From assembly GCF_949628265.1 (NCBI RefSeq), contig NC_088788.1, positions 9,176,001-9,240,000 on the forward strand: DNA of 64,000 nt, in the 5' to 3' direction. The translations under genes and the position numbers were made by a program. Numbering within the stretch: position 1 is the first letter of the stretch; each line of letters begins with the position of its first letter. The stretch is from Cloeon dipterum (Eukaryota; Arthropoda; Insecta; Ephemeroptera; Baetidae). Positions 274-32,649 of the stretch are shown piece after piece. The notes below the pieces were generated by a model. That model saw only the letters and a list, made by a program, of their open reading frames with translations, ran no database searches and was not told where the DNA came from.

Positions 274-275
274 CC

Positions 276-2185: not shown

Positions 2186-2203
2186 CATTATTTTAGCGTA
2201 AAA
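2168..2203. repeat. Perfect 36-bp palindrome at a B-B junction
   Basis: The right terminus of the first B copy abuts the left terminus of the next one with no spacer, centred on AATGCATT between 2185 and 2186. The same junction in unit 2 (15024-15063) is a 40-bp perfect palindrome. The four extra bases there show that unit 1 has lost pairing at one position through a C to T change. Confidence 0.85.
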
Positions 2204-3015: not shown

Positions 3016-3395
3016 CTGAGAGGTTCCATGACGAGGCACCCGTAGTTCATCGTGCAAAATTTTCGCTGCCGGGGCAGGATTGTTCCCTAGTGACGCAACC
3101 CGGACCCACTTTTACCCGCTTTTTTAATCATCTCATTGCTTGAGCGCTCCTGGACCCGATATTCAGGGCCCGAGTGCGCCAGCCCACGGTGTCAAAATGA
3201 AAAACAATTAAAATTTTCTTTTCAGAGCATTTTAATATCAGCAGTATTTTGTATTGCATTTTTAATTTTTTATGTATTCTGCAAAGAAAATAAAAATCTG
3301 ACTGTCGAAGAAATTTTTTACACTCCGATCCTCGCAACAGTACATTTTTTTAAATTCTCATTTTCTGCCTCAATTTATTTAATTTTCATTTGCAG

Positions 3396-5945: not shown

Positions 5946-5977
5946 TATGCAGGAGGACAGTGGCATATAATTATATT

Positions 5978-7968: not shown

Positions 7969-7984
7969 TATTATTTGCTTCCAG

Positions 7985-8196
7985 ATTTGATTCACCCGAC
8001 AAGCCAGGATGTGTCCGAGCAAACTATAAACTTCGAAGAGTGCAAACATTTTTGCCCATTTTGGACAAATGGATTGCGAAATTTCGCGAATTTGCCTTGG
8101 TTAAAAAGGATGACGGAGAACTTGTCGAAGGAGACTCACTAGACTTTACCACTGCCATTCAGCACGGTATCCTAAATCTCGATAGAATGAAACAAG
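7985..8196 (+). pseudogene. Decayed copy of the C-gene exon 4386-4595
   Basis: Acceptor CCAG and donor GTAATG are kept, and the sequence aligns along its length with exon 4386-4595 (shared SQDVSE, then LDKWIAKF, then MKQG). A one-base deletion near 8050 and a three-base gain elsewhere make it 212 instead of 210 bases and shift the frame, so the two halves read in different frames. The next C exon is not found downstream; sequence after 8240 is different. Confidence 0.65.
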
Positions 8197-9889: not shown

Positions 9890-11106
9890 ATGACCACATC
9901 CTATTAGGACGTACGGATGTAATAGAAATAAAATAATTGTGCCGTTTAGCATTTGATAATGAATGTAGCAGAAGTTTGACGAGAAGGCAAGATTCGCACA
10001 ATAAAAATGTGTTTGCTTCACAGTCTTTATAACTCCTTTATTTGGACATGTTTTGGTACAGAATATTTCTCTAATTTATTGATTTATGAATTGTTAAATT
10101 TATCCTAACGGTTACAGTTATTTACTATTTTAATGCATTATATTATAATTATTGAATATTCTTATTGTTACAGCCCAGATTTAAGGCATTAATAGTAATA
10201 AAGGCGTTCGAAAGAATATGAGGAATTTTACTTCAAGCATTTCCTCACTCCAAACCAATAGATGAATGTTTGAAAGGCGTTTTATTTTCCTTTCAAGTCA
10301 GTAACATTCCACTTTTTTGTAATGATCCTTAAGGAGCAGGTGGAATGTTCTTTAACAATAAACGAATATTCGCTAGCTAGGAGGTATATTCTTCCTCCTT
10401 TAACCCATTTTAAGAAGCACCTGCATCGCATGAATGCTTCGCTCGTGCCCCGTGAAGTGTATAGGAAGCTAAACGGGAAACTCAAAGAGTACAATACAGA
10501 TGCACCTGCAGCTCCGTTGTATGGCAGCCGAAAACAACTTTTCGGGGTAGCTTGTTTGGGTACAATTGCGGTGTGACAATACATACCATGTACCAGATAG
10601 AGGAATATTTTGGATTCTTCACACCGTGTAGCCCGAAGAGTCCATGTGCACCTATAGGAACAGCACGGAAAATAGGATTTTAATTTGTTTTTTAGCAGCT
10701 GGAATATTTTTGCAAAGGAAAATAAAACCGAAAAGAGACTTTTGGTTTAATGTTACTCTCGATCTGGTTTCGAGGGATTGGCGGTCATTTGAAGTTAAAT
10801 CATTAATTGTCCGCAGGAATAAGTTGGATACTTTTTACTTGAAGAGCACCAAAATAACTCAATATTATCAAATGAAAATGAATATTAAAACCTACCAGTT
10901 TGGTTAGTCTGATGTCATTCTCCTATCTGGCCCTTGTATTAGTTAACCGGTTGGTCGGTGGGGGTGAGCGTGGGCGTGGAGGTGGCTGTGGCTGTGGCGG
11001 TCGTGGTGGCGGTTGCGGTGGCGGTTGCGGTTTCGGTGGCGGTTGCGGTTTCGGTTTCCCAATGCCCCTGTGGAAATCTCAGGCTTAAAAATTATGTTTT
11101 TTCCAA
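9890..11106 (+). repeat. Y block, unit 1
   Basis: Homologous to 22206-23784 and 37369-38180. Unit 1 lacks a piece corresponding to about 22945-23325, and unit 3 lacks about 22383-23130, so the three copies are distinguished by separate deletions. A short inverted repeat around ACATTCCAC/GTGGAATGT occurs near 10305-10350. Open frames are not conserved between copies and are not called. Confidence 0.6.
10951..11060 (+). repeat. GGT/GGC-rich minisatellite
   Basis: An irregular tandem array of GGTGGC and GGTTGCGG-like units. The corresponding arrays in the other units (about 23660-23735 and 38055-38140) differ in length and unit order. It reads as Gly/Cys in one frame only because of the repeat. 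Confidence 0.8.
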
Positions 11107-11514
11107 TTCACCAGTTGCATAAACCCTAAGTATTCGAAGCTGCCAACAGTTGGCGCTACCGTAGACTTTCGCTTTTAAGGAACTTCCGCTGCGATTTCAG
11201 ACTCAATCTAGCTACTATGTATTCTTCAATTAATTTACTGTTTTACATACTGATAACCAAAACCATTTCAGCCATTCGCCGCGGAAACGTTGGAAAAGAT
11301 TTTTTTATTTCAAAAAATATTTTTTCACGATTCAACGGTGATTGGTTGAACCGATTTTGGTTTTCAGAAAGTAAAAAGAAAGCTTATTTAATTAAGAATG
11401 CACCAGCAGCTATATTGAGACTGAAATCGCAGCGGAAGTGCCTTAAAAGCGAAGGTCTACGGTGGCGCCATCTATTGGCGGCTTCGAACACTTAGGGTTT
11501 ATGCAACTGGTGAA
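11107..11514. mobile_element. MITE2 copy 1
   Basis: A 408-bp element with inverted ends of about 100 bases starting TTCACCAGTTGCATAAACCC. Other copies are 23785-24189 and 38181-38494 (internal deletion). Partial copies are a left end near 33065-33180 and right ends near 21440-21543 and 36583-36690. It carries no coding sequence. No target duplication was identified. Confidence 0.75.
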
Positions 11515-12477
11515 CTTGTGCGGAACAAAACGAATACTTTTCTGTCGGTAAAATTCCCAATTTCTAATTTGACATGGAAATTATTTTAATATTTTTTGGT
11601 AATTCAGGAGCATCTTCGAATATATAAAAAAATCCCACAGTCCAGTCCCTATAGTGTTTCTTTAAATTCAATTAATTTATTTGACTTGAATTGAATTGGA
11701 GGGGAAAAGGTAAAAGTCAAAATGCATGCTTACGTTATATCAGTCATTGGAGACATATTGCTGGCAGGACCTAAAAATAGAAAAAATAAACAAAATGAAT
11801 CTCTGAACTCTCTGCTCGTTGAAAAATAAGTTTATTGTTAAATAATTTGTCTGTAGGGCTGTGAAAATAAGAAGGGAAATGATGGACCATTTTTACTGTT
11901 CATAGACGGTTTTAGACGTTTTTTTTTAATTCCAATTAAAACGTTGCATTTTCCCGATGTTATCACTCGCAGAAAAATTTTTCACTGTATCAAAATGCTG
12001 CTCTCAAATTGATAATGCAACTTTGAGTCTCACAGTGAGTACGAGAAGCGACTGATCGCTTTTGATACTCACTGTGATGACTAAATCGCTCGCTCGCTTT
12101 TCAGTCTCAATCTAACATTAAGAGCGAGCGCAAATCTCTTTTATGTACTCACATATTGAATAGACTTTATTATAAATGTCATTTTTTACAATCAGTAATG
12201 CTCGAAAAAAGCACGAAAATGTAAAAAAACTCACAATTTTAAATATAGAAATTGTTCTGGATCATTTATCCTTTACTGGGAGAGACGCAATAAAAAGTTC
12301 TTCCAAATTTTCAATCAAACAACTTAATTTTGTGCATGCCACGCATTTAAATAAATATTATGAATATTTTGTGGGGGTGCATTTTTTGCGTTTCAAAGTA
12401 GATGCATTTAGATAAAATAGCAGTTATATTCTTCTGGCTGCGAGAAATTTAAATTAAAACCACCCAACTATTTTCTT
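11515..12477 (+). repeat. Z block, unit 1
   Basis: Conserved at 24190-25166 and 38495-39449. Contains an inverted CACAGTGAGTA...TACTCACTGTG motif (near 12030-12075) followed by AGCGAGCG repeats. A 79-codon frame at 12176-12415 is kept in unit 2 but truncated in unit 3 and does not resemble a protein. Confidence 0.55.
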
Positions 12478-13134
12478 GACCGCCGAGAAGAGTTAATTCT
12501 AGAAAGGATATTGAACTGTGAAATGCAAAATTTTACAATTAACTTGAATAGGTTGAATTGTACAGATTAAATTTGACATTCGTTATCAACAATAATTTAT
12601 GATAAATGAATAAATGACGAACTAAAAGTTTTAACTTTAGATATTCACCCTGAGACTGGGTTCAAATAATTTGTGTTAAACACACGCACGCTGAAGGCGG
12701 CCTTCTTTACGGCTTTACTAAACTAAGCAGAAAATGTGTGCAACAAAACTGCAAATTAAGTAAAAAATTCTTCAGTATATACAATTAAATAGAAAACGAA
12801 TAAATATAAATGCTCTGCAAAAATGAGGTCGATAATATAATTACCTCCTTAAGCGTTGGATAGAGTAGAGGATGAGATGTTTCGTCCTGTGCGCTGGACT
12901 GCTGCTGTGCAAGTGGGCACTAATTGCAAGTGCCCCTGACCACGACACCTCCTACCCGACCGCTGCTGAGCACAAATTGAAAGTGACCCTGCCCACCTCC
13001 TACCTGCTGCAGCAATCAGAGTAGAGTGAGCTAGGGAGAATAGAGCAGTAGCCGAGAGAGGGGGAAAAATTCCTGTCTGTAAAAATGGCGGTGTCCAGTT
13101 GGTTGCATAAAATATTATGCTCTTCTCGGCGGTC
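12478..13134 (+). mobile_element. E15 element, complete copy
   Basis: Bounded by 15-bp perfect inverted repeats GACCGCCGAGAAGAG (12478-12492) and CTCTTCTCGGCGGTC (13120-13134), 657 bp. The other copies are 25167-25758 and, truncated on the right, 39450 to about 40020. Non-coding. The start of each duplication unit as counted here lies inside it, at 12819. Confidence 0.7.
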
Positions 13135-13136
13135 CC

Positions 13137-15043
13137 CATTATTTTAGCGTAAAAGTTTTTCCTAAAAAATTATAACTTTAACAAATCCCTGCCAGGATAA
13201 GAGTTGTATTAATTAATAAGTTTTCGTTTAATTTAACATGGATGTCGGAAGGGTTAGCAATACCGACTGTTGATTATTATTTTTTTTTTTGAGAAAAATG
13301 AAGACCGGATAACGAAAAGAGTTCGAATCATCCATTTTTAGCTTTAAAAAACATGGTCAACGCCTTGATGCATTGTATGTGGTCGCGAAGGTTTCAGGCC
13401 GCACACAACCGCTTTCTAAAATTCCACACCCCTTGGTTTTTGTCCATTAGAAGAAAAAATAAACTCACAGAAAAAAAATCAATGCATAATTTTGATCTGT
13501 ATTTCATGAATATCAATTTTCAGGTTGTTATCGTGCCCAAGTGGACATCCAAAGTGGAAACCTTGTGCGACTGGACGTCCGCTAGGAAGAAGAACCAAGT
13601 AAAAAGGATTTCACAACTCCAGCAGTGTACCAGTGCAGAGTTTGACGAGAGATTTTTTAGCAGAGCAAATCATTAAAAAGAAATGCGCCACCTCGATCCG
13701 AAAAAAGGTAAGAGATATCAATTTCAGGAAAATCTATAAAATTAGCATTTATAGGCTGGTCCTTTTCTGGACGATTGCGAACTTCCTCTAATGAGGATCT
13801 TTGTTTGAACGGAGGTCCCAACTTTTTTACGCATCAAATTTTTTACCTCGGATTTTTTAACTGTTAATATTTTTTATCAAGTTGCGGAAAGGAACAAATT
13901 TTGAAAGATGAATTATATAAAATCCAACAAGATACAGTCCCAATCGGTCGGGAACTTTTTGGCCTATTAATTAATGACCTGAGAGGTTCCATGACGAGGC
14001 ATGCACCCCTAAGTTGCTGAACTTCAACCCCCAAGAAAAAAAACAAAAAATGTAGCATCTTACAGTTAGGGGTGGAGGGTAAACACCCCTAAACCTTTCA
14101 GCTGGTCAGGGAAGGTCGAGACGAGTCCAACGGTGGGTAGTTTTTTCAATTCTGATGGTTAGAACCCGAGATTTGAGATGTGTAAAAATGTCAATATTTG
14201 AAAAAAATATATTTTCGCGCGCCGCTATTTCTTGAGAAGTTTGAAACCAAAACAAAATGTAAGCACACCACTGGAAAGCTCGTTTATTTTTCTAGGTAAT
14301 CATATGCATAACATGTGGGTTACATATCAAATTTCGACGTAAATTACCCTTGCCTACTACCCCTAAACCGAATTTCGTCCCTCATCTACCCTGAAATTTT
14401 AATCAAGCCTAAAAAAAAAATTCACCAGCTCTAATATTTTTCCACACATTAATATTTTAGTTTAATTATGTATGTGAATTTTGTTCTTTGTATAAATAAA
14501 CGAACTTGTTTTCAATAAGCGAAGTATTTCATGAATGAAATATTTTCTGCCCCTCGCTGGGTGGCCAGGCAACAAAAGTTACAATAGGTAGCAAGAAAAA
14601 TTCAAGCAAAACATGGGTTTTTCTCACTGTCATTCCCTCTGCAAAAGGTCTATCGTGCGTGATAGACAGCAATAACAGATAAAGAAAAAAGGGGTGAAAA
14701 TCCGAGGTTTAGGGGGTGTATACATTGCTACCAATATATCAATCACCCTTAAACACAAAACTAGCTAATCCCAAAGGGATTGTCAGTCAAGTCTAATTTC
14801 TGACATCCTCATACAGATTTAACGCGAGTACGCTACTGAGTCGAAAAGCTTTTGTTATTGCAACAAGTCTTTTTCCCCAGCCTTCTCTGGAATCAATGTA
14901 AGGGATTTTAACTATCTTTTCTTCTCAAAATTTGTATTTTTTGCACTATTAAACCCTGTCCAAGGACCGGGAACGTAAGGAAATACGTTTTGTTTGTGGC
15001 TCTATTTTGGTTGGGAATGTGAGACTTTTACGCTAAAATAATG
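13137..15043 (+). mobile_element. B element, full-length copy 2
   Basis: Near-identical to 276-2185, including both termini. Its open frame at 13353-13676 keeps the same stop before the donor site as copy 1. Confidence 0.65.
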
Positions 15044-15063
15044 CATTATTTTAGCGTAAAAGT
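15024..15063. repeat. Perfect 40-bp palindrome at second B-B junction
   Basis: Same head-to-tail arrangement as at 2168-2203, with two more paired bases on each side. This is evidently the less mutated version. Confidence 0.85.
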
Positions 15064-15870
15064 TTTTCCTAAAAAAATTATAACTTTAACAAATCCCTGC
15101 CAGGATAAGAGTTGTATTAATTAATAAGTTTTCGTTTAATTTAACATGGATTTCGGAAGGGTTAGCAATACCGACTGTTGATTATTATTTTTATGAGAAA
15201 AATGATGACCGGATAACGAAAAGAGTTCGAATCATCCATTTTTTAGCTTTAAAAAACATGGTCAACGCCTTGATGCATTGTATGTGGTCGCGAAGGTTTC
15301 AGGCCGCACACAACCGCTTTCTAAAATTCCACACCCCTTCCTTTTTGTCCATTAGAAGAAAAAATAAACTCACAGAAAAAAATCAATGCATAATTTTGAT
15401 GTATTTTTCATGAATATCAATTTTCAGGTTGTTATCGTGCCCAAGTGGAAACCTTGTGCGACTGGACGTCCGCTAGGAAGAAGAACCAAGTAAAAAGGAT
15501 TTCACAACTCCTGCAGTGTACCAGTGCAGAGTTCGACGAGAGATTTTTTAGCAGAGCATAACATTAAAAAGAAATGCGCCCCCTCGATCCGAAAAAAAGG
15601 TAAGAGATATCAATTTCAGGAAAATCTATAAAAGTAGCATTTGTAGGCTGGTCCTTTTCTGGACGATTGTGAACTTCCTCTAATGAGGATAACTTGTTTG
15701 AACGGAGGTCCCAACTTTTTTACGCATCAAATTTTTAACCTTGGATTTTTTAACTGTTAATATTTTTATCGAGTTGCGGAGAGGAAAATTTTTGAATGAT
15801 GAATTATATAAAATCCAACAAGATACAGTCCCAATCGGTCGGGAAACTTTTTGGCCTATTAATCAATGAC
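15044..15870 (+). mobile_element. B element, short form, unit 2
   Basis: Corresponds to 2186-3015 and leads into the left arm of C copy 2. The open frame is frameshifted by the same 16-base absence. Confidence 0.6.
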
Positions 15871-16251
15871 CTGAGAGGTTCCATGACGAGGCACCCGTAG
15901 TTCATCGTGCCAAATATTTGCTGCCCGGGCAGGATTATTCCCTAGTGACGCAACCCCGACCCACTTTAACCCGCTTTTTTTAATCATCTCATTGCTTGAG
16001 CGCTCCTGGACCCGATATTCAGGGCCCGAGTGCGCCAGCCCACGGTGTCAAAAAGAAAAACATTTAAAATTTTCTTTTCAGAGCATTTTAATATCAGCAG
16101 TATTTTTAATTGCAATTTTAATTTTTTATGTATTCTGCAAAGAAAATAAAAATCTGACTGTCGAAGAAATTTTTTACACTCCGATCCTCGCAACAGTACA
16201 TTTTTTTAAATTCTCATTTTCTGCCTCAATTTATTTAATTTTCATTTACAG

Positions 16252-18480
16252 AATTCAGAATGGTCATCCTCAAAACGGAGGAAAAAATTGGGTGAATCAG
16301 CCACAATCATATTCCTCCATTCCCGAGGAGCATACTCCCATGCTCCATGTTGGCAGGTAACAGACATAATCATTAAATTTCCTTACAAAGAGAGCCTCTT
16401 TTAATAGCTTCATAGGCAGTATAGATGATAATAATTTACATTATTCAATTGCAGCAGCCAGCAGACCTTTGGTGGAAAGGATCGATCCAAAAATGATTGG
16501 GTTACGCCAAGAAAGAACCCTCGCAACACCGGAAGTCCTTCAACCAGGTAAGGAAATAAATTTTAAAAAATACGTTACATGAAAAGAATAACAATTATTT
16601 AATAAATATAGCCGAATATACAATAAATTGTGAACCAACAGTGCTCAACAATCGAGTAATTGAATTTATTTCATAGGAATGAAAAAGAAAAATAATATTT
16701 CATTTGTAAAATTAGATTTATTAAAAACTTTAGGAATAGCAGTAAAGTAGCTTTTTTGTATTAGACGTTAAAGATTATTACATGTGATAGAACGAGATTT
16801 GTATACTCCGGTCCTCGCAACAGCACATTTTTTTAAATTCTCATTTTCTGCCTCAATTTTTAAAAATGTATTTTTCACAATTTTTTGAAGTCAAGGTTAT
16901 AGAGAATTATTAAAATCAGGTGTAAAAGTTGCCTACAAAAGGAACTGGTTAAAAAAAAGAAACGTTTTTAACCACTACACTGCATTTTCTTTTAAATACG
17001 GGGTTTCCCCGCTGTGCCAACTCAGCCCTTTTTGCTCTCTGTTTGATAACAAAATTTGCAATAAAGTTGCAATGAATTGAAATTTGCTCTGAGAGCGTCT
17101 GAGAATGAGGTTTGAGTTCTTTTCTGGTTTATTCCTTTCCAGCATGCGTGATTTGGCTTCACGGGACGAATGTCTTGCGTTTCAATGCAGTCCTTGGTGC
17201 GGAGGCAAGTGGCCCTTTAGTGGGCTTGGTGGGTCCCTGTGCGGCCTGGTGCGCCCATGTTATCCGTTCGCGGTGTTATTGGCACTCGGAATTCAGCATT
17301 CGTGCTAGTTGCAGTGCGTGCCCTTCCCGCTCCGAGAGGATAGGGATAAAAAGAGCAAAAATAATTTTAATTGTAGTTGTAATTATTCTTGTTAGGGGGA
17401 AAACACTAAAACCCCTCTCTATATAGCTTGGTGGCTATCTCCCTACTACTATATTACCTATTGACGCCTGCACTCTCAAAGGTGCCTAATAAACACGCTC
17501 ATTGTTTAAGTCTTTAGAACAGGAATATAACAAAAATATACTTCCATTTACAGAAATTCAAATCATGCATCTCAACAAGGAGTCAGTGGGAGCCAACCAT
17601 CACAACCACTTCCAATGGAAGGGAAAGAAAAAGAGTCTTCACCATTTAAAAGGTAATATTAGATTCGTAACGAATTTTACGTATCCATTAAATTTTCTCC
17701 TGTAAATTAAAAGTTGCCTTCAACTTATATAACATGGATTTCAGCTAACCCAAAAATTCAACATTATATTAGTTCTTACTTATTCAGACGTTGAGTATGA
17801 CTATTGCCCAGAACGAGAAATTTTGCAATTATTTTTTATTTACAACCTAAATTAAAAAAATTAAATCATTCCACTGATCAGGAATTTTCCTTTTTCTAAG
17901 ATCATTTGCATGTTCCAAAGGTACAATAACACCCAATCTTGTCTCCTCCAATCAATGAGCATCCACTACTTGAACGACATCAAAATATTCTCAGATTTTC
18001 TTCTTCTTCCCTCGGATCAGTATAAGTGTTCTTTGTTACAGGCCAAAATGTTTAGCCACTAAGAGGAAAAATCTAGCAGCCAGCAACCAAACAAAAAAAA
18101 AACGAATGTGGGCCGAACTGCCAAACTTCCACGCGTCCAATAATAATAACAATTAAAATGATCTATGATACCGGGTAATTAACTGTTGAATAGTATATGC
18201 ATGTATTTTTAGTCTTTTTGTTTGTTTATATTCATCCATTCCCATATCTTTGACGTCCCAAGGTGAATAATATTAATCAGATTTTTTCTTGTTTTTTAAA
18301 AAAAAAATTTTTTGACACTTTTTCACTTCATTTCGTTTCTTCTCGACGGTTTTATTTACTAAAATATACTTCCATTTACAGAAATTCAAATCATGCATCT
18401 CAACAAGGAGTCAGTGGGAGACAACCCTCACAACCACTTCCAATGGAAGGGAAAGATTCGGAGTCTTCCCCATTTAAAAG
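16252..18480 (+). pseudogene. C-gene cassette exons, unit 2 (incomplete)
   Basis: Four exons with good acceptors and donors are intact and phase 2 at both ends: 16252-16356, 16455-16547, 17554-17652 and 18382-18480. The last two are near-duplicates encoding NSNHASQQG...QPSQPLPMEGK. Between them, at about 18042-18180, lies a damaged version of the basic exon 28710-28775: one base is missing and a deletion joins it to the middle of the following exon. No terminal exons follow, so this copy cannot make the product predicted from copy 1. Confidence 0.45.
17040..17430 (+). repeat. R dispersed repeat
   Basis: A GC-richer stretch containing CCCATGTTATCCGTTCGCGG. Copies: about 27720-28110, 43080-43410, a partial one at 32785-32900, and a diverged one outside the array at 59555-59710. 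No tRNA-type promoter boxes or target duplications were seen, so the class is open. Confidence 0.5.
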
Positions 18481-18798
18481 GTAATATTAGATTCGTAACG
18501 AATTTTACTTTTCTATTATATTTTCACCTGCAAATTAAAAGTTGCCTTATACTTGTATAATGTGGATTTCATCTAATCCACAAATTCAACATTTTATTAG
18601 TCCTTAAAATAAAATCAGACACCATGGACGGGCGCATTTGGGCCCTAAAAATCGGATCCAGGCGCGCTCACGCAATGAGATGATTTAAAATATCGGGTAA
18701 GAGCGGGTCCGGGTTGCGTCACTGGGGAACAATCCTGCCCGCGGGCAGCGAAAATTTGGCACGATGAACTACGGGTGCCTCGTCATGGAACCTCTCAG

Positions 18799-19545
18799 AA
18801 CCATTTTGATTACTTCCCTCCATCTCTTTAATAATTATGTTCCTTTTGAATTTATTTGTCTGGATATGACAATGTATGGGGCAAAATTGCCCTGCAGAAC
18901 CATAATAAAGTACACTTTGAAACTAAATAATAACTGAAAGAAAAATCAGCTAAAATCGTTATATCTGATTTTGTACCAAAACAATTAAACCATCATTGAT
19001 GTGCATGGTATTTTTTCAGCTTCCATGACGTGAAAAATTGAAGATAATTTGATTAGCGAGACATTTTTAAAAAAAAAAATAGAATCAAGATGAGAGCAAT
19101 TGTGCATCTGTCGAATCATTCAAAATGTTTAGCAAACAGGTTATTCCCTTTTTGTGCTCTGACCGAGACGTTGCTGTGGAATGCGACTGCTTTTATTGTT
19201 AGCAAGTGCTGTTTCGTTCTTCCATAGAGCCATTGAAAAAGTATTTGAAGAATTAGATAGACTGCGCATATGTGCCTATTTTATTTATTATATTGAATAA
19301 GATGCGTTTCGCTTCATGTGTCAGAGCTGATCGTCACTTCTTTATTTTTCTTTTGTTGTATTTATAGAAAGTACACATAACGACACTTGTAAACATTTGC
19401 CGCACCTGCTACATACATAACAATTTCAATTCTTCATCCTGTTTATCCCACCAACGCTGGAGAAAAATAGGTAAGCTGGAGAACTAAATTTCAAAGAACT
19501 TATTTTTCATGAAATGTGAAAAATAGGAAAAGAGGTATGCAGGAG
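18799..19545 (+). repeat. D block, unit 2
   Basis: Same sequence and position as 5211-5945, directly after the right arm of C. Confidence 0.6.
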
Positions 19546-20479
19546 GGCTGAAGTATCCCAAGGGAGGGGACAAATTTAAAGTTAAACGTTCGCTTCTAGC
19601 TGCCGCTTTTTCAGTATTGCTGCGAACCAAAATTTTCAAGAGGATGTATATGGGGGGGTTGCTCGACTCGTTTTCAGGGATGGGGTGGTTTCGACAAGGC
19701 CTAAACAAACATTACATTGGTCCTAAAGTCGAGAAATTAATAGAAGAGCTTGAAAATGAGTCGATATTTAAAGTTAAAAATTCAAGGGGTGGATTTTTGA
19801 GGGGGTGCGTGTCCATAATTGGTCTCAATTTGTTTTGAATTTTTATGTTAGGATTTTGTAATTTGAGATGTGACAATATATTGTATTGATTTTAATTGAT
19901 TTCTCGTGATTAGGACGAACTGGATGTAGAGGTCTGAGCCGCCCAATTTTTGTCGGCTGCTGGCTATACCGGCTTAGCCGCCTAAATCTCGCGGCTGCGG
20001 CGGCTCGCCTAAAATAGGCGGCTGCTGGCTCACGGCGCAGCTTCAGTCTCTAAAATAAATGAGTAAACAGTGTGTATTGCTCCTTTTCCAGCATAGATGT
20101 AAGCGTTGACAAAAGACCTGCCGCATAAGGAGAGGAGGAGCATTGACCGCGTATAAAGTGCAGCCACCACATAATATAGTTTCATTTAATATTTAAGACA
20201 ACTTTTGGGCTATAAAAAATGTGGTGATTTCAAAAAGAGCAGTATATTTAGTATGAGTGAAAAATATCTTTATTTCAAATTTTGAAATAGGTGAACACTC
20301 GACTTTGTGTTCACATTGGAAATAAATTAAACCAGGCTTCATCCTCGATGCTTCAAAAATTGTCGTTTTCTCACACTTGATCTTTGGAGCTAGCCTCAAC
20401 TGCCCCATGAATAGGTGGGTGATATTTGTTAAGAAGTGTTTGGAATTTTCGTGTCGGAATTTTGTAAGTTTTTAAGCCA

Positions 20480-20857
20480 GTTTTAAATCCTAATTGCGAA
20501 ATTATATTTCTGTTGCGGCAGTTTCTTGCTCTGTGGCCCGTCTTTCCGCATCCAAAGCGGCGCGGGCCGCCTCCGATGTTTTTCCCTTGCTGCCGCTTGC
20601 CGGCCGGCTGCTTTGTGTGCGCATAATTGTCTTGGGCCGGGGTCTGCTTTCTGTTTTGGTGTATATTCGATCACAAGCCGAATAAACTCGCGTAACTGAA
20701 AGGTGGGTTTCCATCTTTGGCCCCGGTAAGTGAGGAGGAGGCGGCGTATTTGATGGCGTTATTGGGCGCTATCTCGTCCGGAGCCGCGGCTCGCTGATCG
20801 TTGAGACAAGGCAGCCAGGAAGCTGATCGCTGTCAGGCTACGGTCCAGATCGGCCAT
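20480..20857 (-). pseudogene. LTR-retrotransposon gag relic with zinc-knuckle remnant
   Basis: On the minus strand an ATG at 20857 starts a short frame (MADLDRSLTAISFLAALS) ended by a TAA. Another frame further on, with a run of basic and Gln residues, reads FGCGKTGHRARNC (about 20518-20559). This is the CCHC knuckle spacing (C-x2-C-x4-H-x4-C) of retroelement Gag nucleocapsids with the first Cys replaced by Arg. Frames are broken between the two parts. The same relic is at 35620-35996, and its 5' part also at 46545-46671. Polymerase and LTRs were not identified. Confidence 0.5.
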
Positions 20858-21599
20858 CTCGTATCACATGTTATGTAACAATCACGCATGTAATGATAGC
20901 AGCAGTGCCTGGCACCTGGCAGTCCTCATAAATCCCGACCTTCGAAATCAGTATTCTTTGCGAAAAAAAATGAAAGAAAGGAAAAAAATTCGCAAAGGGG
21001 CCCCAAAATTTTGTGCCACAATAATTTCTAAATTTTAATTGTCACATTGGTGTGGTGCAATATTTCCCGCGCATTCACTCCTTAAAACGTATAGCACAAA
21101 CGCCACTGGCTCTTCCGTGTCTCCACCGATAATTATAAGTTCTTAAAATTACACATAGCAGAACTGTTCCTATTTTATTTAAAATAAAAAAATCAAGACA
21201 GTGTCAGTATTTGTTTTTTTTTTAGAAGTAAATCGACATCTTAAAGTGGGTTCGTCATTTTTGATTCAAATCAATTTGCTCAATTTCGAAATAATTAAAT
21301 AACCAATTTTAAAATTTAAAAATTTTGTTTCATGACATGTGCCAGGATTGCACGTGACACTCTAAGGCGCTTACTGCCCTTACGCAGGCCGCCCCTTGCC
21401 TACTACCCCTAAACCGAATTTCGTCCCTCATCTTCCCTGATTATTTGAAGAATGCACAGTAGCTAGATTGAGTCTGAAATCGCAGCGGAAGTGCCTTAAA
21501 AGCGAAAGTGTACGGTGGCGCCATCTGTTGGTGGCTTCGAAACGCAATTTTGCGACCGTCACCTCAGCCCAAAGGGCCTCAGCCGTGGTCTCGAGCTGT

Positions 21600-21770
21600 G
21601 TCTGTCGGCGCAGCAGAAGGTGCGGAAGAATGGCCAGCAGGACACCGCCTGCTGGTCTGCGGCCGCCAGTTCTGTCCTTTCGCATCAAAACGTAGTCTGT
21701 ATATGGATCACCTCGTGGTCAAAGATATCAGGCGACAACCATGTCTCGATTTTTTATTGTTTTGATGCTG
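21600..21770 (+). pseudogene. Possible zinc-finger-like fragment
   Basis: One frame reads HRLLVCGRQFCPFASKRSL, then MDHLVV and later QPC-x-DF, which loosely recalls the degenerate C2H2 fingers of lola-type insect exons. The cysteine and histidine spacing is imperfect and all three frames are open here because of high GC, so this is weak. It is duplicated at 36747-36917. Confidence 0.15.
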
Positions 21771-22205
21771 CTGGGAATTACTCGCTCGAGTTGGACGCAG
21801 CGCGGCTCGGGAACGCTCCAGAAGGAATCGCTCATCATTGGCAAAGAGCAGGGCCAGCAGATAAAATTTTCTTCTTTTTGTAATCATTAATCATTAACCC
21901 CTTTCTCGCTCATTTTTGTAAATTTGCTGACAAGGCACGTTCTGTGGAATTCCAGCAGGCGTTGCATCTGATAAATAAGGCATTCTTGCGGCCGGCTTTG
22001 TCGCAATAAAAGCGTAAAGAGGGTAGCATCTCTGGCATTCAGCGCTGTTACCTAGGGGTTTTTTATGGAATCCTCGTCATTTCTATATAACCAGCTCTTT
22101 AGAAATTCCACCAGTGATTGGGCTTGCGTCAATGGGAAAACTAATTTAGCTATTTTCCAATCAACTGGGCAGTATTTAGGGTCGCCTCCACGCGACTCTT
22201 TCTTT

Positions 22206-23784
22206 TTTAACCCCATGACGACATCCTATTAGGACGTACGGATGTAATAGAAATAAAATAATTATGCCGTTTAACTTTTGATAATGACTGTAGCAGAAGT
22301 TTGACGAGAAGGCAAGGATTCGCACAATAAAGATGTGTTTGCTTCACAGTCCTTATATCTCCTTTATTTGGACATGTTTTGGTAAAGAATGTTTCTCTAA
22401 TTTATTGATTTATGAATTGTGATATTTATCCTAACGGTTACAGTTATTTACTATTTTAATGCATGATATTATATTTATTGAATATTCCTATTGTTACAGC
22501 CCGGATTTAAGGCATTAATATTGATAAAGGCATTCGAAAGAATATGAGGAGTTTTACTTCTAGCATTCCCTCACACCAAACCAATAGATGATTGCTTGAA
22601 TGTTTGAAAGGCGTTTCATTTTCCTTTCATGTCAGTAACATTCCACTTTTTTGTAATGGACCACAATAAGGAGCAGGTGGAATGTTCTTTAACAATAAAC
22701 GAACATTTGCTAGCTTGGTGGTATATTCTTCCTCCTTTAACCCATTTTAAGAAGTAGCTGCATTACATGAATGATTGGATCGTGCCCCGTGAAGTGTATA
22801 GGAAGCAAAACGGGAAACTCAAAGAGTACAATACAGTTGCACCTGCAGCTACGGTGTATGGCAACCGAAAACAACTTTTCGGAGTAGCTTTTGTTTGGGT
22901 ACAATTGAAGTGTGACAATTTTCAATGTACCAGAAAGAGGAATATTTTTAAATTGACTCTCTATACAAAACAGATAATTGCGAGGTGTGGATGTTCATTG
23001 GAAGGGTTTTCCATTGATATAGCTGTGAACCCTTACCTTATGTCCGGCATCAATATTTTGGTATGCTCCTGTGCGCATATTGGATTACAATACCAACTCT
23101 TAGATGATGTGAATTTATCACTAACTAATGTCGGATGACTTCAATTTTGAAAATCTGGGCTCAAGAAAAAATTAGGGCCACTGAATGAAAAATGCACATC
23201 TTTTTACTTGACACGACCAAGAATTCAATCGTTTTTATTGACTAGTTTGCTCAATGGTTTAAAGGCTAAATCAGGCACATTGTAGAATTAAGCTGCTGTT
23301 AAGTTCTTGGCTGGGTCCCTGGATTCTTCGCACCGTGTAGCCCGAAGAGTCCATATGCCTATAGGAACAGCACGGAAAATAGGTTTTTAATTTGTTTTTT
23401 GAGCACCTGGAATATTTTTGCAAAGGAAAATAAAACCGAAAAGAGGCTTTTGGTTTAATGTTACTCTCGATCTGATTTCGAGGGATTGGCGGTCATTTGA
23501 AGTTAAATCATTAATTGTCCGCAGGAATAAGTTGGATACTTTTTACTTGAAGAGCACCAAAATAACTCAATATTATCAAACGAAAATGAATATTAAAACC
23601 TACCAGTTTTATCAGTCTGATGTCATTCTCCTATCTGGCCCGTGTATTAGTTCACCGGTTGGTCGGTGGGGGTGAGCGTGGGGGTGGAGGTGGGGGTGGC
23701 GTTTTCGGTTTCGGTGGCAGTGGCGATTTCGGTGGCCCAATGTCCCTGTGGAAATCTCAGGCTTAAAAATTATGTTTTTTCCAA
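22206..23784 (+). repeat. Y block, unit 2 (longest copy)
   Basis: Retains segments separately deleted from units 1 and 3. Includes the GGT-rich minisatellite at about 23660-23735. A 123-codon frame at 22767-23138 is not preserved in the other units and is not called. Confidence 0.55.
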
Positions 23785-24189
23785 TTCACCAGTTGCATAA
23801 ACCCTAAGTGTTCGAAGCTGCCAACAGTTGGCGCCACCGTAGACTTTCGCTTTTAAGGCACTTCCGCTGCGATTTCAGACTCAATCTAGCTACTATGTAT
23901 TCTTCAATTAATTTGCTGTTTTACATGCTGATAACCAAAACCATTTCAGCCATTCGCCGCGGAAACGTTGGAAAAGATTTTTTTTTCAAAAAATATTTTT
24001 TCACTATTCAACGGCGATTGGTTGAACCGATTTTGGTTTTCAGAACGTCAAAAGAAAGCATATTTAATTAAGAATGCACAGCAGCTATATTGAGTCTGAA
24101 ATCGCAGCGGAAGTGCCTTAAAAGCGAAAGTTTACGGTGGCGCCATCTATTGGCGGCTTCGAACACTTAGGGTTTATGCAACTGGTGAA
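23785..24189. mobile_element. MITE2 copy 2
   Basis: 405 bp, same inverted ends as 11107-11514 and the same place in the unit, so it was present before the duplication. Confidence 0.7.
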
Positions 24190-25166
24190 TTTGTGCGGAA
24201 CAAAACGAATACTTTTCTGTCGGTAAAATTCCCAATTTCTAATTTGACATGGAAATTATTTTAATATTTTTTGGTAATTCAGGAGCATCTTCGAATAAAT
24301 AAAAAATTCCCAGAGTCCAGTCCAGTCCCCATAGTGTTTCATTAAATTCAATTCATTTATTTGACTTGAATTGAATTGGAGGGGGAAAGGTAAAAGTCAA
24401 AATGCATGCTTACGTTATATCACCCATTGGAGACTGCTGGTTGCTGGTTGCTGGTGGGACCTAGAAATAGAAAAAATAAACAAAATGAATCTCTGAACTC
24501 TCTGCTCGTTGAAAAATATGTTTATTGTTAAATAATTTGTCTGTAGGGCTGTGAAAATAACAAGGGAAATGATGGACCATTTTTACTGTTCATAGACGGT
24601 TTTAGACGGTTTTTTAATTTTAATTAAAACGTTGCATTTTCCCGATGTTATCACTCACAGAAACATTTTTCACTATCAAAATGCTGCTCTCAAATTGATA
24701 ATGCAAAATTGAGTCTCACAGTGAGTACGAGAAGCGACCGATCGCTTTTGATACTCACTGCTGTGATGACTAAATCGCTCGCTCGCTTTTCAGTCTCAAT
24801 CTAACAATAAGAGCGAGCGCAAATCTCTTTTATGTACTCACATATTGAATAGACTTTATTATAAATGTCATTTTTTACAATCAGTAATGCTCGAAAAAAG
24901 CACGAAAATGTAAAAAAACTCACAATTTTAAATATCGAAATTGTTCTGGATCATTTATCCTTTACTGGGAGAGACGCAATAAAAAGTTCTTCCAAATTTT
25001 CACTCAAACAACTTAATTTTGTGCATGCCACGCATTTAAATAAATATTATGAATATTTTGTGGGGGTGCATTTTTTGCGTTTCAAAGTAGATTCATTTAG
25101 ATAAAATAGCAGTTATATTCTTCTGACTGCGAGAAATTTTAATTAAAACCACCCAACTATTTTCTT
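24190..25166 (+). repeat. Z block, unit 2
   Basis: Matches 11515-12477 with few differences. The 79-codon frame here is 24865-25104. Confidence 0.55.
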
Positions 25167-25758
25167 GACCGCCGAGAAGAGTTAATTCTAGAAAGGATAT
25201 TGAACTGTGAAATGCAACATTTTACAATTAACTTGAATAGGTTGAATTGTACAGATTAAATTTGACATTCGTTATCAACAATAATTTATGATAAATGAAT
25301 AAATGACGAACTAAAAGTTTTAACTTTAGATATTCACCCTGAGACTGGGTTCAAATAATTTGTGTTAAACACACGCGCGCTGAAGGCGGCCTTCTTTACG
25401 GCTTTACTTAACTAAGCAGAAAGTGTGTGCAACAACTGCAAATTAAGTAAAAAATTCTTCAGTATATACAATTAAATAGAAACGAATAAATATAAATGCT
25501 CTGCAAAAATGAGGTCGATATAATTACCTGGATAGCTTTGGATAGAGTAGAGGAGGAGATGTTTCGTCCTGTGCGCTCGACTGCTACTGTGCGAGTGGGC
25601 ACCCTGACCACGACACCTCCTATATACCTGCTGCAACAATCAGAGTAGGGTGGGTTTAGGGAGAATAGAGCAGTAGCCGTGAGAGGGGTAAAATTCCTGT
25701 GTTTAAAAATGGCGGTGTCCAGTTTGTTGCATAAAATATTTTGCTCTTCTCGGCGGTC
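25167..25758 (+). mobile_element. E15 element, copy 2
   Basis: Same 15-bp inverted termini. Shorter inside than 12478-13134 because part of a GC-rich stretch is missing. Confidence 0.65.
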
Positions 25759-25760
25759 CC

Positions 25761-26553
25761 CATTATTTTAGCGTAAAAGTTTTTCCAAAAAAATTATAAC
25801 TTTAACAAATCCCTACCAGGATAATAGTTGTATTAATTAATAAGTTTTCGTTTAATTTAACATGGATGTCGGAAGGGTTAGCAATACCGACTGTTGATTA
25901 TTTTTTTTGAGAAAAATGATGACCAGATAACGAAAAGAGTTCGAATCATCCATTTTTTATCTTTAAAAAACATGGTCAACGCCTTGATGCATTGTATGTG
26001 GTCGCGAAGGTTTCAGGCCGCACACAACCGCTTTCTAAAATTCCACACCCCTTCGTTTTTGTCCATTAGAAGAAATCTTCAGAAAGAAATTTTCAGGTTG
26101 TTATCGTGCCCAAGTGGACTTCTAAAGTGGAAACCTTGTGCGACTGGACGTCCGCTAGGAAGCAGAACCGAGTAAAAAGGATTTCACAACTCCAGCAGTG
26201 TACCAGTGCAGAGTTTGACGAGAGATTTTTTAGCAGAGCATAACATTAAAAAGAAATGCGCCCCCTCGATCCGAAAAAAAGGTAAGAGATATCAATTTCA
26301 GGAAAATCTAAAAAAGTAGCATTTGTAGGCTGGTCCTTTTCTGGACGATTGTGAACTTCCTCTAATGAGGATCTTTGTTTGAACGGAGGTTCCAACTTTT
26401 TTACGCATCAAATTTTTTACCTCGGATTTTTTAACTGTTAATATTTTTTATCGAGTTGCGGAGAGGAAAAAATTTTGAAAGATGAATTATATAAAATCCA
26501 ACAAGATACAGTCCCAATCGGTCGGGAAACTTTTTGGCCTATTAATCAATGAC
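25761..26553 (+). mobile_element. B element, short form, unit 3
   Basis: Unit 3 has no full B copy; E15 is followed directly by the short form and then by C. An extra internal deletion removes about 50 bases near 26075. Confidence 0.6.
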
Positions 26554-26932
26554 CTGAAAGGTTCCATGACGAGGCACTCGTAGTTCATCGTGCCAAATAT
26601 TTGCTGCCGGGCATGATTGTTCCCTAGTGATGCAACCCGGACCCACTTTTACCCGCTTTTTTAATCATCTCATTGCTTGAGCGCTCCTGGACCCGATATT
26701 CAGGGCCCGAGTGCGCCAGCCCACGGTGTCAAAATGAAAAACAATTAAAATTTTCTTTTCAGAGCATTTTAATATCAGCAGTATTTTTAATTGCAATTTA
26801 AATTTTTTATGTATTCTGCAAAGAAAATAAAAATCTGACTGTCGAAGAAATTTTTTACACTCCGATCCTCGCAACAGTACATTTTTTTAAATTCTCATTT
26901 TCTGCCTCAATTTATTTAATTTTCATTTACAG

Positions 26933-28320
26933 AATTCAGAATGGTCATCCTCAAAACGGAGGAAAAAAATTGGGTGAATCAGCCACAATCATATTCCTCC
27001 ATTCCCGAGGAGCATACTCCCATGCTCCATGTTGGCAGGTAACAGACATAATCATTAAATTTCCTTACAAAGAGAGCCTCTTTTAATAGCTTCATAGGCA
27101 GTATAGATGATAATAATTTACATTATTCAATTGCAGCAGCCAGCAGAACTTTGGGTAGAAAGGATCGATCCAAAAATGATTGGGTTACGCCAAGAAAGAA
27201 CCCTCGCAACACCGGAAGTCCTTCAAGCAGGTAAGGAAATAAATTTTAAAAAATACGTTACATGAAAAGAATAACAATTATTTAATAAATATGGCCGAAT
27301 ATACAATAAATTGTGAATCAACAGTGCTCAACAATCTAGTAATTGAATTTATTTCATAGGAATGAAAAAGAAAAATAATATTTCATTTGTAAAATTAGAT
27401 TTATTAAAAACTTTAGGAATAGCAGTAAATTAGCTTTTTTGTATTAGACGTTAAAGATTATTACACGTGATAGAACGAGATTTGTACACTCCGATCCTCG
27501 CAACAGCACATTTTTTTAAATTCTCATTTTCTGCCTCAATTTTTAAAAATGTATTTTTCACAATTTTTTGAAGTCAAGGTTATAGAGAATTATTAAAATC
27601 AGGTGTAAAAGTTGCCTACAAGAAACTGGTTAAAAAAAAAGAAACGATTTTAACCACTACACTGCATTTTCTTTTAAATACGGGGTTTCCCTACTGTGCC
27701 AACTCAGCCTTTTTTGCTCTCTGATTGATAACAAAATTTGCTGTAAGTTGCAATGAATTGAAATTTGCTCTGAGAGCGTCTGAGAATGAGGTTTGAGTTC
27801 TTTTCTGGTTTGCACCTGTCCAGCATGCGTGATTTTGCATCACGGAACGAATGCCTAGCGTTTCAAAAAGTCCTCGGTGCGGAGGACCTTCAGTGGGCTG
27901 GGTCCCTGTGCGGCCTGGTGCGCCAATGTTATCCGTTCGCGGTGTTATTGGGACCCGGGTTTCAGCATTCGTGCTAGTGCAGTGCGCGCCCTTCCCGCTC
28001 CGAGAGGATAGGGATAAAAAGAGCAAAAATAATTTTAATTGTAGTTGTAATTATTCTTGTAAGGGGGAAAACACTACAACCCCTCTCTATATAGCTTGGT
28101 GGCTATCTCCCTACTACTCTATTGCCTATTGACGCCTGCACTCTCAAAGGTGCCTAATAAACACGCTCATTGTTTAAGTCTTTAGAACAGGAATATAACA
28201 AAAATATACTTCCATTTACAGAAATTCAAATCATGCATCTCAACAAGGAGTCAGTGGGAGCCAATCATCACAACCACTTCCAATGGAAGGGAAAGAAAAA
28301 GAGTCTTCACCATTTAAAAG
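26933..28320 (+). pseudogene. First cassette exons of unit 3, damaged
   Basis: Exon 26933-27038 has one extra A in a run (106 instead of 105 bases, frame shifted). The next exon (from about 27137) has an in-frame TAG early on (after QQNFG). The third, 28222-28320, is intact (99 bases, phase 2 both ends). So the array begins with two broken cassettes. Confidence 0.5.
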
Positions 28321-28709
28321 GTAATATTAGATTCGTAACGAATTTTACATAATTATCCATTAAATTTTCTCCTCTAAATTACAAGTTGCCTTCAACTTAT
28401 ATAACATGGATTTCATCTAACCCTAAAATTCAACATTATATATTAGTTCTTACTTATTCAGACGTTGAGTATGACTATTGCCCAGAATGAGAAATTTTGC
28501 AATTATTTTGTAATTACAACCTAAATTAAAAAAAATAAATCATTCCACTGATCAGGAATTTTGCTTTTTCTAAGATCATTTGCATGTTCCAAAGTAAAAT
28601 AACACCCAATCTTGTCTCCTCCAATCAATGAGCATCCACTATTTGAACGACATCAAAATATTCTCAGATTTTCTTCTTCTCCCCTCAACATAAGTATTCT
28701 TTGTTACAG

Positions 28710-28775
28710 GCCAAAAGCTTTAGCCCCTAAGAGGAAAAAATCTAGCAGCCAGCAACCAAAAAAATCTCGACATAG
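28710..28775 (+). CDS. Cassette exon encoding a basic, nuclear-localisation-like peptide
   Basis: A 66-base exon, acceptor TTGTTACAG and donor GTAACA, phase 2 at both ends like its neighbours. It reads PKALAPKRKK, then a Ser/Gln linker, then PKKSRHR: two basic clusters, as in bipartite nuclear localisation signals. It is intact only in unit 3; the unit 2 version is frameshifted and fused by deletion to downstream sequence. If the gene is expressed, this suggests a nuclear product. Confidence 0.4.
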
Positions 28776-29199
28776 GTAACAAAATATTTATTTTAGAAAG
28801 TAACTAAAAAATATGAGCATTTTTAGCTTCACAGTTGTTGTAAAATTAAGAAATATGTATGTGCGAATTATGAGCAATCCCAGATTAAACGATAAAAGAT
28901 TTTTAATATGATTACACACGGTCGATTCCAATTATGGAGCATTAAGACATCCGGCGGTGAGGTGCTCCCCGCTGGCTGGGAAATATTTTAAGTTGTTCAA
29001 ATTTGGCAGCGCATGCTCGCCACCGGCACAAGTGCCGCTGCTCTTCAATATGCTTGTTTATATATTAATACAAGAATCACAACTCGTGTAGTAAAAAACA
29101 TATGAAACTATGTGAAGAACGCTCAATTCTGACCAAGTATTTTATTTAACTTGCTACGATATTTTTTTGTACACTCACCACCATTTAATTTATTTCCAG

Positions 29200-29309
29200 C
29201 TACAATCGTTGTGATGACGATTCTCAAGACAAAGACGAATGTGGGCCGAACTGCCAAACTTCCACGCGTCCAATAATAATATCAATAAAAATGATCTATA
29301 TGATACCGG
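29200..29309 (+). CDS. Possible exon, acidic then Ile-rich
   Basis: Follows TTTCCAG and reads in the phase-2 entry frame as YNRCDDDSQDKDECGPNC and then an Ile-rich tail to a GGGTAAT donor. Its exit phase (1) does not match the cassettes. A homologous segment in unit 2 (about 18100-18180) is deleted at its 5' side. Confidence 0.25.
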
Positions 29310-29889
29310 GTAATATTAACTATTGAATAGGATATGCATGTATTTTTAGTCTTTTTGTTTGTTTATATTCATCCATTCCCATATCTTCGACGTCCCATGG
29401 TGAATAATATTAATTAGATTTTTTCGTGTTTTTTGAATTAAAATTTTTTGACATTTTTTCGATTCATTTTGTTTCTTCTCGACGGCTTTATTTACTAAAA
29501 TATACTTCCATTTACAGAAAATCAAATCGTGCTACTCAACAAGGAGGAGTCCATGTGAGCCATAACCCTCACGACCACTTCCAATAGAAGGGAAAGATTT
29601 GGTGTCTTCACCATTTAAAAGGTAATATTAAATTCGTAACGAATTTTACTTGTATGTGATATGTTCACCTGCAAACTAAAAGTTGCCTTACACTTGTATA
29701 ATGTGGATTTCATCTAATCCACAAATTCAACATTTTATTAGTTCTTAAAATAAAATCAGGACTGATTGTGAGAGTCAGGATTGGATTGATTTAGGAGCAA
29801 ATCGACATTTTAAAGTGGATTCATCATTAATCACTCAATCAATTTGAAAAATTTATTTGTGATAAATTTTTCTGTATTCAAAACTTGTA

Positions 29890-30610
29890 AAAATGCTTAA
29901 TTTCCAAATTTCGTTATTTTTGCAACTCCAAATTTCGGGTTCTTCCCGTCAGAATCGCAAGAACAAAGGTCAAGGTCACAAATCTGCGTGCAAAATGTTC
30001 AATTAAAAATATCGCAAAATACGCCCCCTCGGAATTTTTTTCTTGAAAACGTAAAAAATGTAGCCCTGAATGCGAAGACCCGATAGTCCACGAGAAATCG
30101 ATGGAGACTCTCGCGAGATATTTAGAATTTATGGATTCATTTTTGGCGTCTGGCACCATAACTGAACATCATCTGGCGATTTTACTTCCATCATTTCCGG
30201 CGGAATTTGATCTGCAACCCCAAATGATATGCATATATGATTACCTATAGAAAAATAAACGAGCTTTCCAAGTAGTGTGCTTTAAAATTTTTTTTGGCCT
30301 CAAAATTTATAAAAATAAGTGACCGCGCACCGAGAAAACAGGAATTTTTCAAATATCGTTATTTTTGCAACTCCGAATCTCGGGTTCTAACCATCAGAAT
30401 TACAAAAACTAACCACCATGGACTCGTTTCAACCTGCCCTGACGAGCTAAAAGGCTTTCAACTCTCCACCGATAAGACCTTTTTACTTTTTTCGAGGGGG
30501 TTGAAGTATTGCATCTTAGGGGTGGATGGTATAAGCACCCCTAAACCTTTCAGCTGGTTAGGGCAGCACAAGACGAGTCCAACGCTGGGAAGTTTTCGCA
30601 ATTGTGATGG
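29890..30610. repeat. Rearranged, partly inverted B-related sequence
   Basis: 30215-30330 is the inverse of about 1330-1500. 30388-30610 contains an inverted pair around CTAACCATCAGAATT, while its right half matches 1190-1310 directly. This looks like a hairpin derivative of the B 3' part. Confidence 0.45.
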
Positions 30611-31242
30611 TTACCAAAAAACTTAATTAAAATTTAATTTCATGAAGTTTTAACTTGTTTTCGCCGCTCTTTCAAGAGACACATGATGCAATCAAATTGC
30701 CCACTAACATTTTGAGGGGGGGGTCGATAATAGGGTCTCGTGTGCTTCCATGCCCTGGTGAGCTTTTCGATGCTAGTCTGGCGTCTGGCCCTAGTAATGA
30801 AAATCAATATTCGGAAAATCTTTAAAAGTAAAACGCATAATCTGGTCCTTTTCTGGACGATTGCGAGCTTCCTCCAATCGAGGATCATTTTTTGTTCGCA
30901 CTGAGGTTCCAATTTTTTTCACATCAAATGATTTAATTTAGATTGTCATAATTTTGCATGTTGTTTTATCTATTCCTGGCGGAGAACCTAAAAAAAGAGA
31001 GATTAGTAATAATTAGTCGAACGAGAGACTTAGTCCCAGCTAAAAAATGAAAAGAGTTTATTTAATGAAGAAAACTTTAGACACAAAAATGCAAACTACC
31101 TCCCGTGTTCCTCTATGCTGCAATGTCGGTCCTTCACGTAGGACATCAGGAGATTCACTAAATTTACTTCCAATCAATCCTACGTTTGATCATGACCCAA
31201 ATTCAGGAGGGTCTTATTTTTTTGCTTATTTCTCAATTTCAG

Positions 31243-31332
31243 AACCAATGATGATAACAATGCATCAATGGAGGACGATATACAGGCTCTTAAAGATCTT
31301 CGCCTTTCAGACGGAAATTCGTCATATTCAGG
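31243..31332 (+). CDS. Cassette exon, acidic
   Basis: A 90-base exon after TTTCAG and before GTTTGT, phase 2 at both ends, reading TNDDNNASMEDDIQALKDL and then a Ser-rich end. Seen only in unit 3. The same phase as the other cassettes supports it; the donor is less standard. Confidence 0.35.
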
Positions 31333-31671
31333 GTTTGTACATACTTTTCAATGTTTAAAATTATTTAAGATTGTCTCTTTGGTTGGCAGAGAGCTTCTTT
31401 ATTATTTATATGATGAATACATTCCTTACAGTTGATTGAATTATATAAAATTAAAGAAATTCGACAATAGCCTCCCTGCCTATCGTGATTTAAAAATTTA
31501 TTAATTGAAATTATGCTTCTCAATCTGTGAAGTCCAAATTCCTAAACCACCATCATATTATCCAACTAGGGGGCCAGCTTGGGTGTCTTCACCTCATAAA
31601 TGATTCAAATTATATCCTTAAAAGCGAGCGTGAAGTAAAAGAAAATTAACATTATTCAATTGTAATTGCAG

Positions 31672-31764
31672 CAACCAGCAGACCTTTGGTGGAAACGATG
31701 AATCCTTAAATGGCCGGGTCAATCAAACGACATTCGTCCGCAATATCAGCACTTCCTCAACCAC
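31672..31764 (+). CDS. Cassette exon, diverged relative of 3604-3696
   Basis: A 93-base exon, same length and phase as 3604-3696, sharing QQTFGG and the pattern R-V-x-x-x-x-x-x-R-N. The open frame is kept although the sequence has diverged clearly, which fits an old cassette duplication rather than recent copying. Confidence 0.4.
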
Positions 31765-32039
31765 GTAATGACATAAATTTTCTTTTAATATTGTTGTCTA
31801 CTTGCCTCAATTTATCGTATTGATTTTTTTACTATTTGTAATTGTTTTTTTAAAACAATATATTATTATGTACATTTTTGTTTATCTTAGAAATATTTTT
31901 GTAAACAATTCATTCCAAGAACGTATATCATCATAGAAATTTTCAGAAAGAAAATATTCATTCATCAGATTATTTTTTTCTGTACAGACTGGCCTAATTT
32001 TGGTACCTTCATCTCCATTTATTTAATTTTCATTTACAG

Positions 32040-32144
32040 AATTCAGAATGGTCATCCTCAAAACGCAGCCAAAAAATTGGAGACGCAGCCACAATCACAT
32101 TTATCCACTCCCGTGGAGCATGCTCCCAGGCTCCATGTTAGCGG
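32040..32144 (+). CDS. Cassette exon, diverged relative of 3396-3500
   Basis: A 105-base exon after TTTACAG and before GTAATG, same length and phase 2 at both ends as 3396-3500, sharing IQNGHPQN and LHV near the end. A relative of the third cassette type follows at 32349-32434, but it is 13 bases shorter and leaves the phase. Confidence 0.4.
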
Positions 32145-32649
32145 GTAATGTTAAATTTTGAATAATTATATTCCTGTTCTTTTAATGTTTTTGTTATTCA
32201 TCGATTCCCGTATCTTCAACGCTCTACGATGGATAATATCATTTTTTCATTTTTTTTTCTTTCAAATTAATAACATTTTGACACTTTTTTCACTAAATTT
32301 TGTTTCTTCTCGCTATCTTTATTTACTAAAATATACTTCCAGTTACAGAAATCCAAATCGCGTTACTCAACACCAATCTGCACCACCACTTTTCCAAAAG
32401 GAGGGCTTGCTTCGGTGTCTTCCCCTCATATATGGTAATATAATATCAAATTTTTAACGACGAAAAAGTTAAATTAACTCGAAAATTACCCCCACGGGGG
32501 CCGGGGTAGATCACACTTTCTACACACGACCTTAATTAGCTATAATCATTAAATTTCCTTACAAAGAGATCCTCCATTAATAGCTTCATGGGCAGTATAG
32601 ATGATAATAATTTACATTATTCAATTGCAGCAGCCAGGTGGGTCCCTGT

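Follow-up and report, generated by a model that had tools for sequence, protein, structure and literature searches.

What kind of locus sets many short exons of one phase side by side in a mayfly genome? We addressed this question for a stretch of 64,000 nucleotides of Cloeon dipterum DNA, hereafter the window (contig NC_088788.1, or C3, positions 9176001-9240000; genome of 190 Mb in ten contigs). An initial annotation had described an array of symmetric phase-2 cassette exons there, laid out as for exon shuffling or alternative splicing. The modular layout is real. However, the array in the window lies outside the main locus; we consider it a likely outlier of a tandem cassette-exon gene family, shaped by segmental duplication and by partial decay.

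All five cassette lengths originally described (105, 93, 99, 66 and 90 nt; here E105, E93, E99, E66 and E90) were recovered, each preceded by AG, followed by GT, open in frame, and beginning and ending in phase 2 (phase 2-2). The two proposed relatives at 31672-31764 and 32040-32144 are likewise intact and phase 2-2. The E105 exon at 16252-16356 is 84% identical over 103 nt to the copy at 32040, and the E93 exon at 31672 matches its counterparts in units B and A of the window (described below) with 86% identity over 43 nt and 74% over 87 nt, respectively. Three probes were compared with the genome: E105 yielded at least 17 matches, a domain exon at least 24 and E99 at least 8. All matches listed fall within 8.787-9.208 Mb of C3 (~0.42 Mb), and most of these reside in a minus-strand cluster 0.2-0.4 Mb before the window. 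Our results for this cluster apply to the parts of it that were examined, in which the genes differ in cassette number and order. The array exceeds what chance would produce, because relatives with the same borders fill this cluster and because the cluster copies keep their frame, as counted below.

The organization of the family is most readily seen in a complete gene, here called the parent gene (C3:8944094-8935303, minus strand), with a predicted product of 649 residues. Its first exon, 38 nt long, ends in phase 2 and is followed by cassettes in the order E99, E90, E105, E99, E105, E105, E93, E99, E66 and E93, all ten of them phase 2-2 with AG and GT borders. Next comes a block of three domain exons (a, b and c) with phases 2-1, 1-1 and 1-2, making the block as a whole phase 2-2, and then a second domain ending in a stop codon. 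Because the cassettes and the internal domain block are all phase 2-2, any of them can be duplicated or lost with no shift in frame. The earlier statement that cassettes can be skipped or combined without breaking the frame therefore holds arithmetically: whichever of the 1024 possible cassette subsets is omitted, the downstream frame is preserved, and the same holds when the first domain block is omitted. An additional E93 at 8940433 has no GT at the donor place, and the loss or skipping of this dead exon costs no frame in this layout. The N-terminal part of the product comprises 340 residues with three cysteines, and its cassette-encoded region is rich in proline, serine, glutamine and lysine. 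Two 5S rRNA-like sequences, one beside the gene (L035, 639-758; Rfam score 60.4 bits) and one inside it (L044, 2050-2165; 33.7 bits, under the 38-bit cut-off), are perhaps short 5S-derived elements.

A first set of borders for the window cassettes had been scored with a preference for open frames. For the frame count, borders were instead placed by profile position, blind to frame, and partial matches were dropped, which kept 21 of 23 E105, 23 of 29 E93, 13 of 23 E99 and all six E90 copies; the count excludes one kept E93 without GT, the E66 class and an E99 found later in L049. Under these rules, 47 of the 48 full cassettes in the cluster are divisible by three, even though they have nine different lengths (84 to 111 nt). 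Not one of the 48 contains a stop in the coding frame, compared with 38 and 31 that do in the other two frames. In the window, 10 of 14 full cassettes are divisible by three, while four are frame-broken and two carry a stop, and thus the window array is partly decayed.

Substitution patterns in the cluster were assessed by the ratio of nonsynonymous to synonymous change (omega). Pooled pairwise values are 0.88 for E105, 1.01 for E93, 1.55 for E99 and 1.36 for E90, and 2.11, 0.93 and 1.08 for domain exons a, b and c. A codon model gave omega values of 1.33, 1.29 and 1.83 for E105, E93 and E99, and of 1.56, 1.17 and 1.62 for exons a, b and c, with twice the log-likelihood difference (2dlnL) being 1.93, 1.33, 3.11, 1.98, 0.96 and 4.72 in the same order. 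Fitted jointly, the six classes yield an omega of 1.35 (the best of six grid values), with a 2dlnL of 11.7 against a value of 1. Frame-broken and stop-bearing cassettes were excluded from this model, and domain exons were excluded only if they carried a stop; a single shifted exon b and some borders that are in doubt therefore remain in the set, and gene conversion lies outside the model. In every one of the six classes except exon a, nonsynonymous divergence is higher than that of introns, but synonymous divergence is higher too in four of the six, a comparison confined to alignable introns that carries little weight. We take the omega values as a sign of fast and probably diversifying evolution in a coding family, a reading that falls short of proof. 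The initial annotation had named neutral substitution in the exons as evidence that would count against its reading; the cluster does not clearly present such a pattern, given that the frame is kept and residues change at least at the silent rate. Nei-Gojobori (NG86) estimates from the window are 1.09 for E105, 0.79 for E93 and 0.44 for E99, with three to four close copies each, and the window copies alone are either too recent or too damaged for a judgement on neutrality.

A protein search with a domain sequence spliced from the cluster returned four matches (P0001 to P0004), all predicted C. dipterum proteins, at 53-64% identity. An E93-like segment precedes the domain in P0001, P0003 and P0004, and P0002 starts inside such a segment; P0004 also has an E90-like segment, and the domain occurs twice in P0001 and P0002. 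By eye, the start of P0004 (MENSNQQHSIDR) is similar to the first exon found in two cluster genes (MESPNQQRPIIR). A profile search of proteins recovered only P0003, and a search with the cassette-rich N-terminus recovered only P0001. No description of this family was found among the listed titles and opening lines of abstracts, a search for literature on EF-hand proteins of Cloeon mayflies returned nothing, and the main text of the C. dipterum genome paper (PMC7250882) contains neither 'EF-hand' nor 'calcium'.

The domain itself is of a diverged penta-EF-hand type, a fold class assigned by similarity. Its profile (A2), compared with PDB entries, gives E-values of 4e-6 for ALG-2 and 1e-3 for sorcin, through a weak colinear match to the EF2-EF4 core, and aligns with residues 28-83 and 88-140 of the chain in ALG-2 entry 3aak. 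The overall penta-EF-hand fold was also matched, over positions 99-270 of the model. Pfam gave nothing better than an E-value of 0.04 for this domain. Calcium loops are marked by a DxDxDG-like pattern, and this pattern occurs in none of the 16 spliced domains, two of which contain stops.

The relationship of the window to the cluster can be approached through trees of E105 and E93, in which many forks are weakly supported. For E105, the three near-identical window copies are placed together with the cluster copy at 8849921 (support 100/100); for E93, the copies of the same units are placed with those at 8849713 and 8939541. From these groupings, the outlier in the window probably descends from a gene like that at 8.842-8.851 Mb. 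The parent gene's two intact E93 exons fall into separate groups of the E93 tree, each together with copies from other genes, and these cassette classes therefore appear to predate the genes as they now stand.

Within the window, cassette copies sit in repeats spaced roughly 10.7-15 kb apart, whose long aligned pieces are 90-97% identical with introns and intergenic DNA included. Examples are 1-3951 with 12819-16803 (94.7% identity), 15044-18095 with 25761-28764 (93.7%) and 10611-14001 with 23320-26576 (91.3%). Since these long repeats include introns, the window array arose mainly by duplication of whole stretches. Exon-level copies are present as well, such as the E99 exons at 17554 and 18382 (repeat family D6).

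All exons of the window units and the first-exon copies lie on the plus strand. In unit A, intact E105 (3396-3500) and E93 (3604-3696) exons in the phase 2-2 frame are followed by an open domain exon a (4196-4320, 125 nt, phase 2 to 1), an open exon b (4386-4595, 210 nt, phase 1 to 1) and an exon c that looks coding up to a TGA (4651-4803, end read by eye) and has no acceptor AG. Exon b of the second domain (7985-8196, 212 nt) is frame-broken. An inverted repeat (5975-6863 and 7083-7971), some 890 nt long and with 96% identity between its arms, lies between the first domain and this shifted exon.

Unit B begins with a 26-nt first exon carrying an ATG and ending in phase 2 (15574-15599, MRPLDPKK), a positional homologue of the 38-nt first exons of the cluster genes. 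Intact phase 2-2 exons E105 (16252-16356), E93 (16455-16547) and E99 (17554-17652) follow, and then an E66-like exon fused with terminal-exon sequence (18042-18156). These five consecutive exons with AG/GT borders spell one open, cassette-only frame of 145 residues (15574-18156). A second intact E99 copy in the phase 2-2 frame lies at 18382-18480.

Unit C has a 26-nt phase-2 first exon (26256-26281), frame-broken E105 (26933-27038, 106 nt) and E93 (27137-27230, 94 nt) exons, an intact E99 (28222-28320) and an intact, lysine-rich (PKRKK) E66 with AG/GT borders and phase 2-2 (28710-28775). A possible terminal exon (29200-29326), identified by eye, is open from phase 2 to a TGA; the one other copy observed (18092-18157) is partial. 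Beyond it are a frame-broken E99 relative with a stop (29518-29621, 104 nt), an intact phase 2-2 E90 with AG/GT borders (31243-31332), an E99 relic without splice sites (31503-31602), the intact diverged E93 (31672-31764) and E105 (32040-32144) exons, and a diverged, frame-broken E99 of 86 nt (32349-32434). Three of the five measured first-exon copies in the window (821-845, 2716-2740 and 13683-13707, 25 nt) end in phase 1. Directly before each first exon is a conserved stretch (649-811, 2559-2708, 13513-13675, 15417-15566 and 26088-26248), open in most copies (VVIVPKWTSK...) and weakly matching the end of P0004, which may be a neighbour's terminal exon or a promoter-side element.

Could the window array simply be dead duplication debris without a product? 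We judge this somewhat more probable than its opposite, and it is compatible with our explanation of the cluster. The frame-broken and stop-bearing cassettes, the exon c without its acceptor, the shifted second exon b and the phase-1 first exons all point this way, but the open frame of unit B does not, unless that unit is too young for decay to have become visible. A dispersed mobile element with exon-like pieces is very improbable. Inverted repeats and repeated stretches are indeed interspersed among the window cassettes, but the matches listed for the three exon probes are all confined to the ~0.42 Mb of a single contig noted above, and the cluster bears a coding signature. Regulated alternative splicing in the manner of Dscam, in which one gene would generate many isoforms by choice of cassettes, fits the frame arithmetic of the parent gene and the differing pre-domain segments of the predicted C. 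dipterum proteins. We nevertheless regard it as unlikely, given that each C. dipterum model is a predicted protein of its own rather than a demonstrated isoform of one gene, and that symmetric phase by itself is no proof of skipping.

Our favoured explanation remains a tandem gene family of which the window holds an outlying piece. As read from the sequence, a complete member consists of a first exon with a phase-2 end, a series of short phase 2-2 cassettes encoding a Pro/Ser/Gln/Lys-rich N-terminus, and two diverged penta-EF-hand-type domains. With the same phase at both ends, a module could by arithmetic be duplicated, lost or killed by mutation with no frame shift. Unequal exchange between repeats would expand and reshuffle the cassettes, selection would quickly alter their residues, and the resulting N-terminal tail might display varied short binding motifs attached to a scaffold for protein binding that would have become independent of calcium. 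The copies in the window would show this machinery mostly running down, with the short cassette-only frame as a possible exception.

Elsewhere in the window, a Pfam scan of ten frames found Peptidase_M14 (zinc carboxypeptidase) alone, in two minus-strand frames (52017-52451 and 56654-57088; E-values 8e-26 and 3e-25). Between 50915-53046 and 55375-57569, three pairs of stretches share 83-89% identity, which suggests that the two frames belong to a tandem pair of genes. A 120-nt unit occurs as two tandem copies (97% matches) at 44221-44459.

How does this family compare with known systems? It resembles penta-EF-hand proteins (ALG-2/PDCD6, sorcin, grancalcin and the calpain domain) in fold and weak sequence match, and members of that family carry a flexible N-terminal region before the fold, much like the tail here. 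The present family differs by having no canonical calcium loop in 16 domains, a tandem domain pair in the complete gene, an N-terminus built from repeated symmetric exons, and fast evolution; it marks a fast-evolving penta-EF-hand-type family in a mayfly. Dscam, as described, also has tandemly duplicated exons of like length. However, mutually exclusive splicing is established for Dscam, whereas here a choice among exons is hypothetical and several cassette classes are interleaved.

In layout, the closest analogue is the bicycle genes of aphids. In Hormaphis cornu these are described as rich in short internal exons that are nearly all in phase 2 and as evolving fast, which is ascribed to strong positive selection, and a cysteine-tyrosine-cysteine (CYC) motif is named for them (PMC9168663). 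Short internal phase-2 exons are shared by both families, as represented here by all ten cassettes, with domain exons of phases 2-1, 1-1 and 1-2. The CYC motifs of bicycle proteins come in pairs, and the 649-residue parent protein contains none. Bicycle proteins are described as having saposin-like folds (PMC13041983), in contrast to the penta-EF-hand type here. Membership in the bicycle family, our first idea, is thus opposed by both the fold and the motif. Unlike in bicycle genes, no resemblance to a signal peptide is apparent by eye in first exons such as MESPNQQRPIIR, and the cassettes recur in recognisable classes. It is a tentative and rather doubtful proposal that a mayfly lineage independently evolved a bicycle-like system, in which freely combinable phase-2 cassettes, diversified by exon turnover and splicing, would be joined to a calcium-free penta-EF-hand scaffold under positive selection from a reproductive, immune or parasite-facing arms race. 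The layout of many short exons, one phase and fast change is rare, and this family, as another case of it with no apparent relationship to the first, offers a test of whether rapid turnover of exons is promoted by phase symmetry itself.
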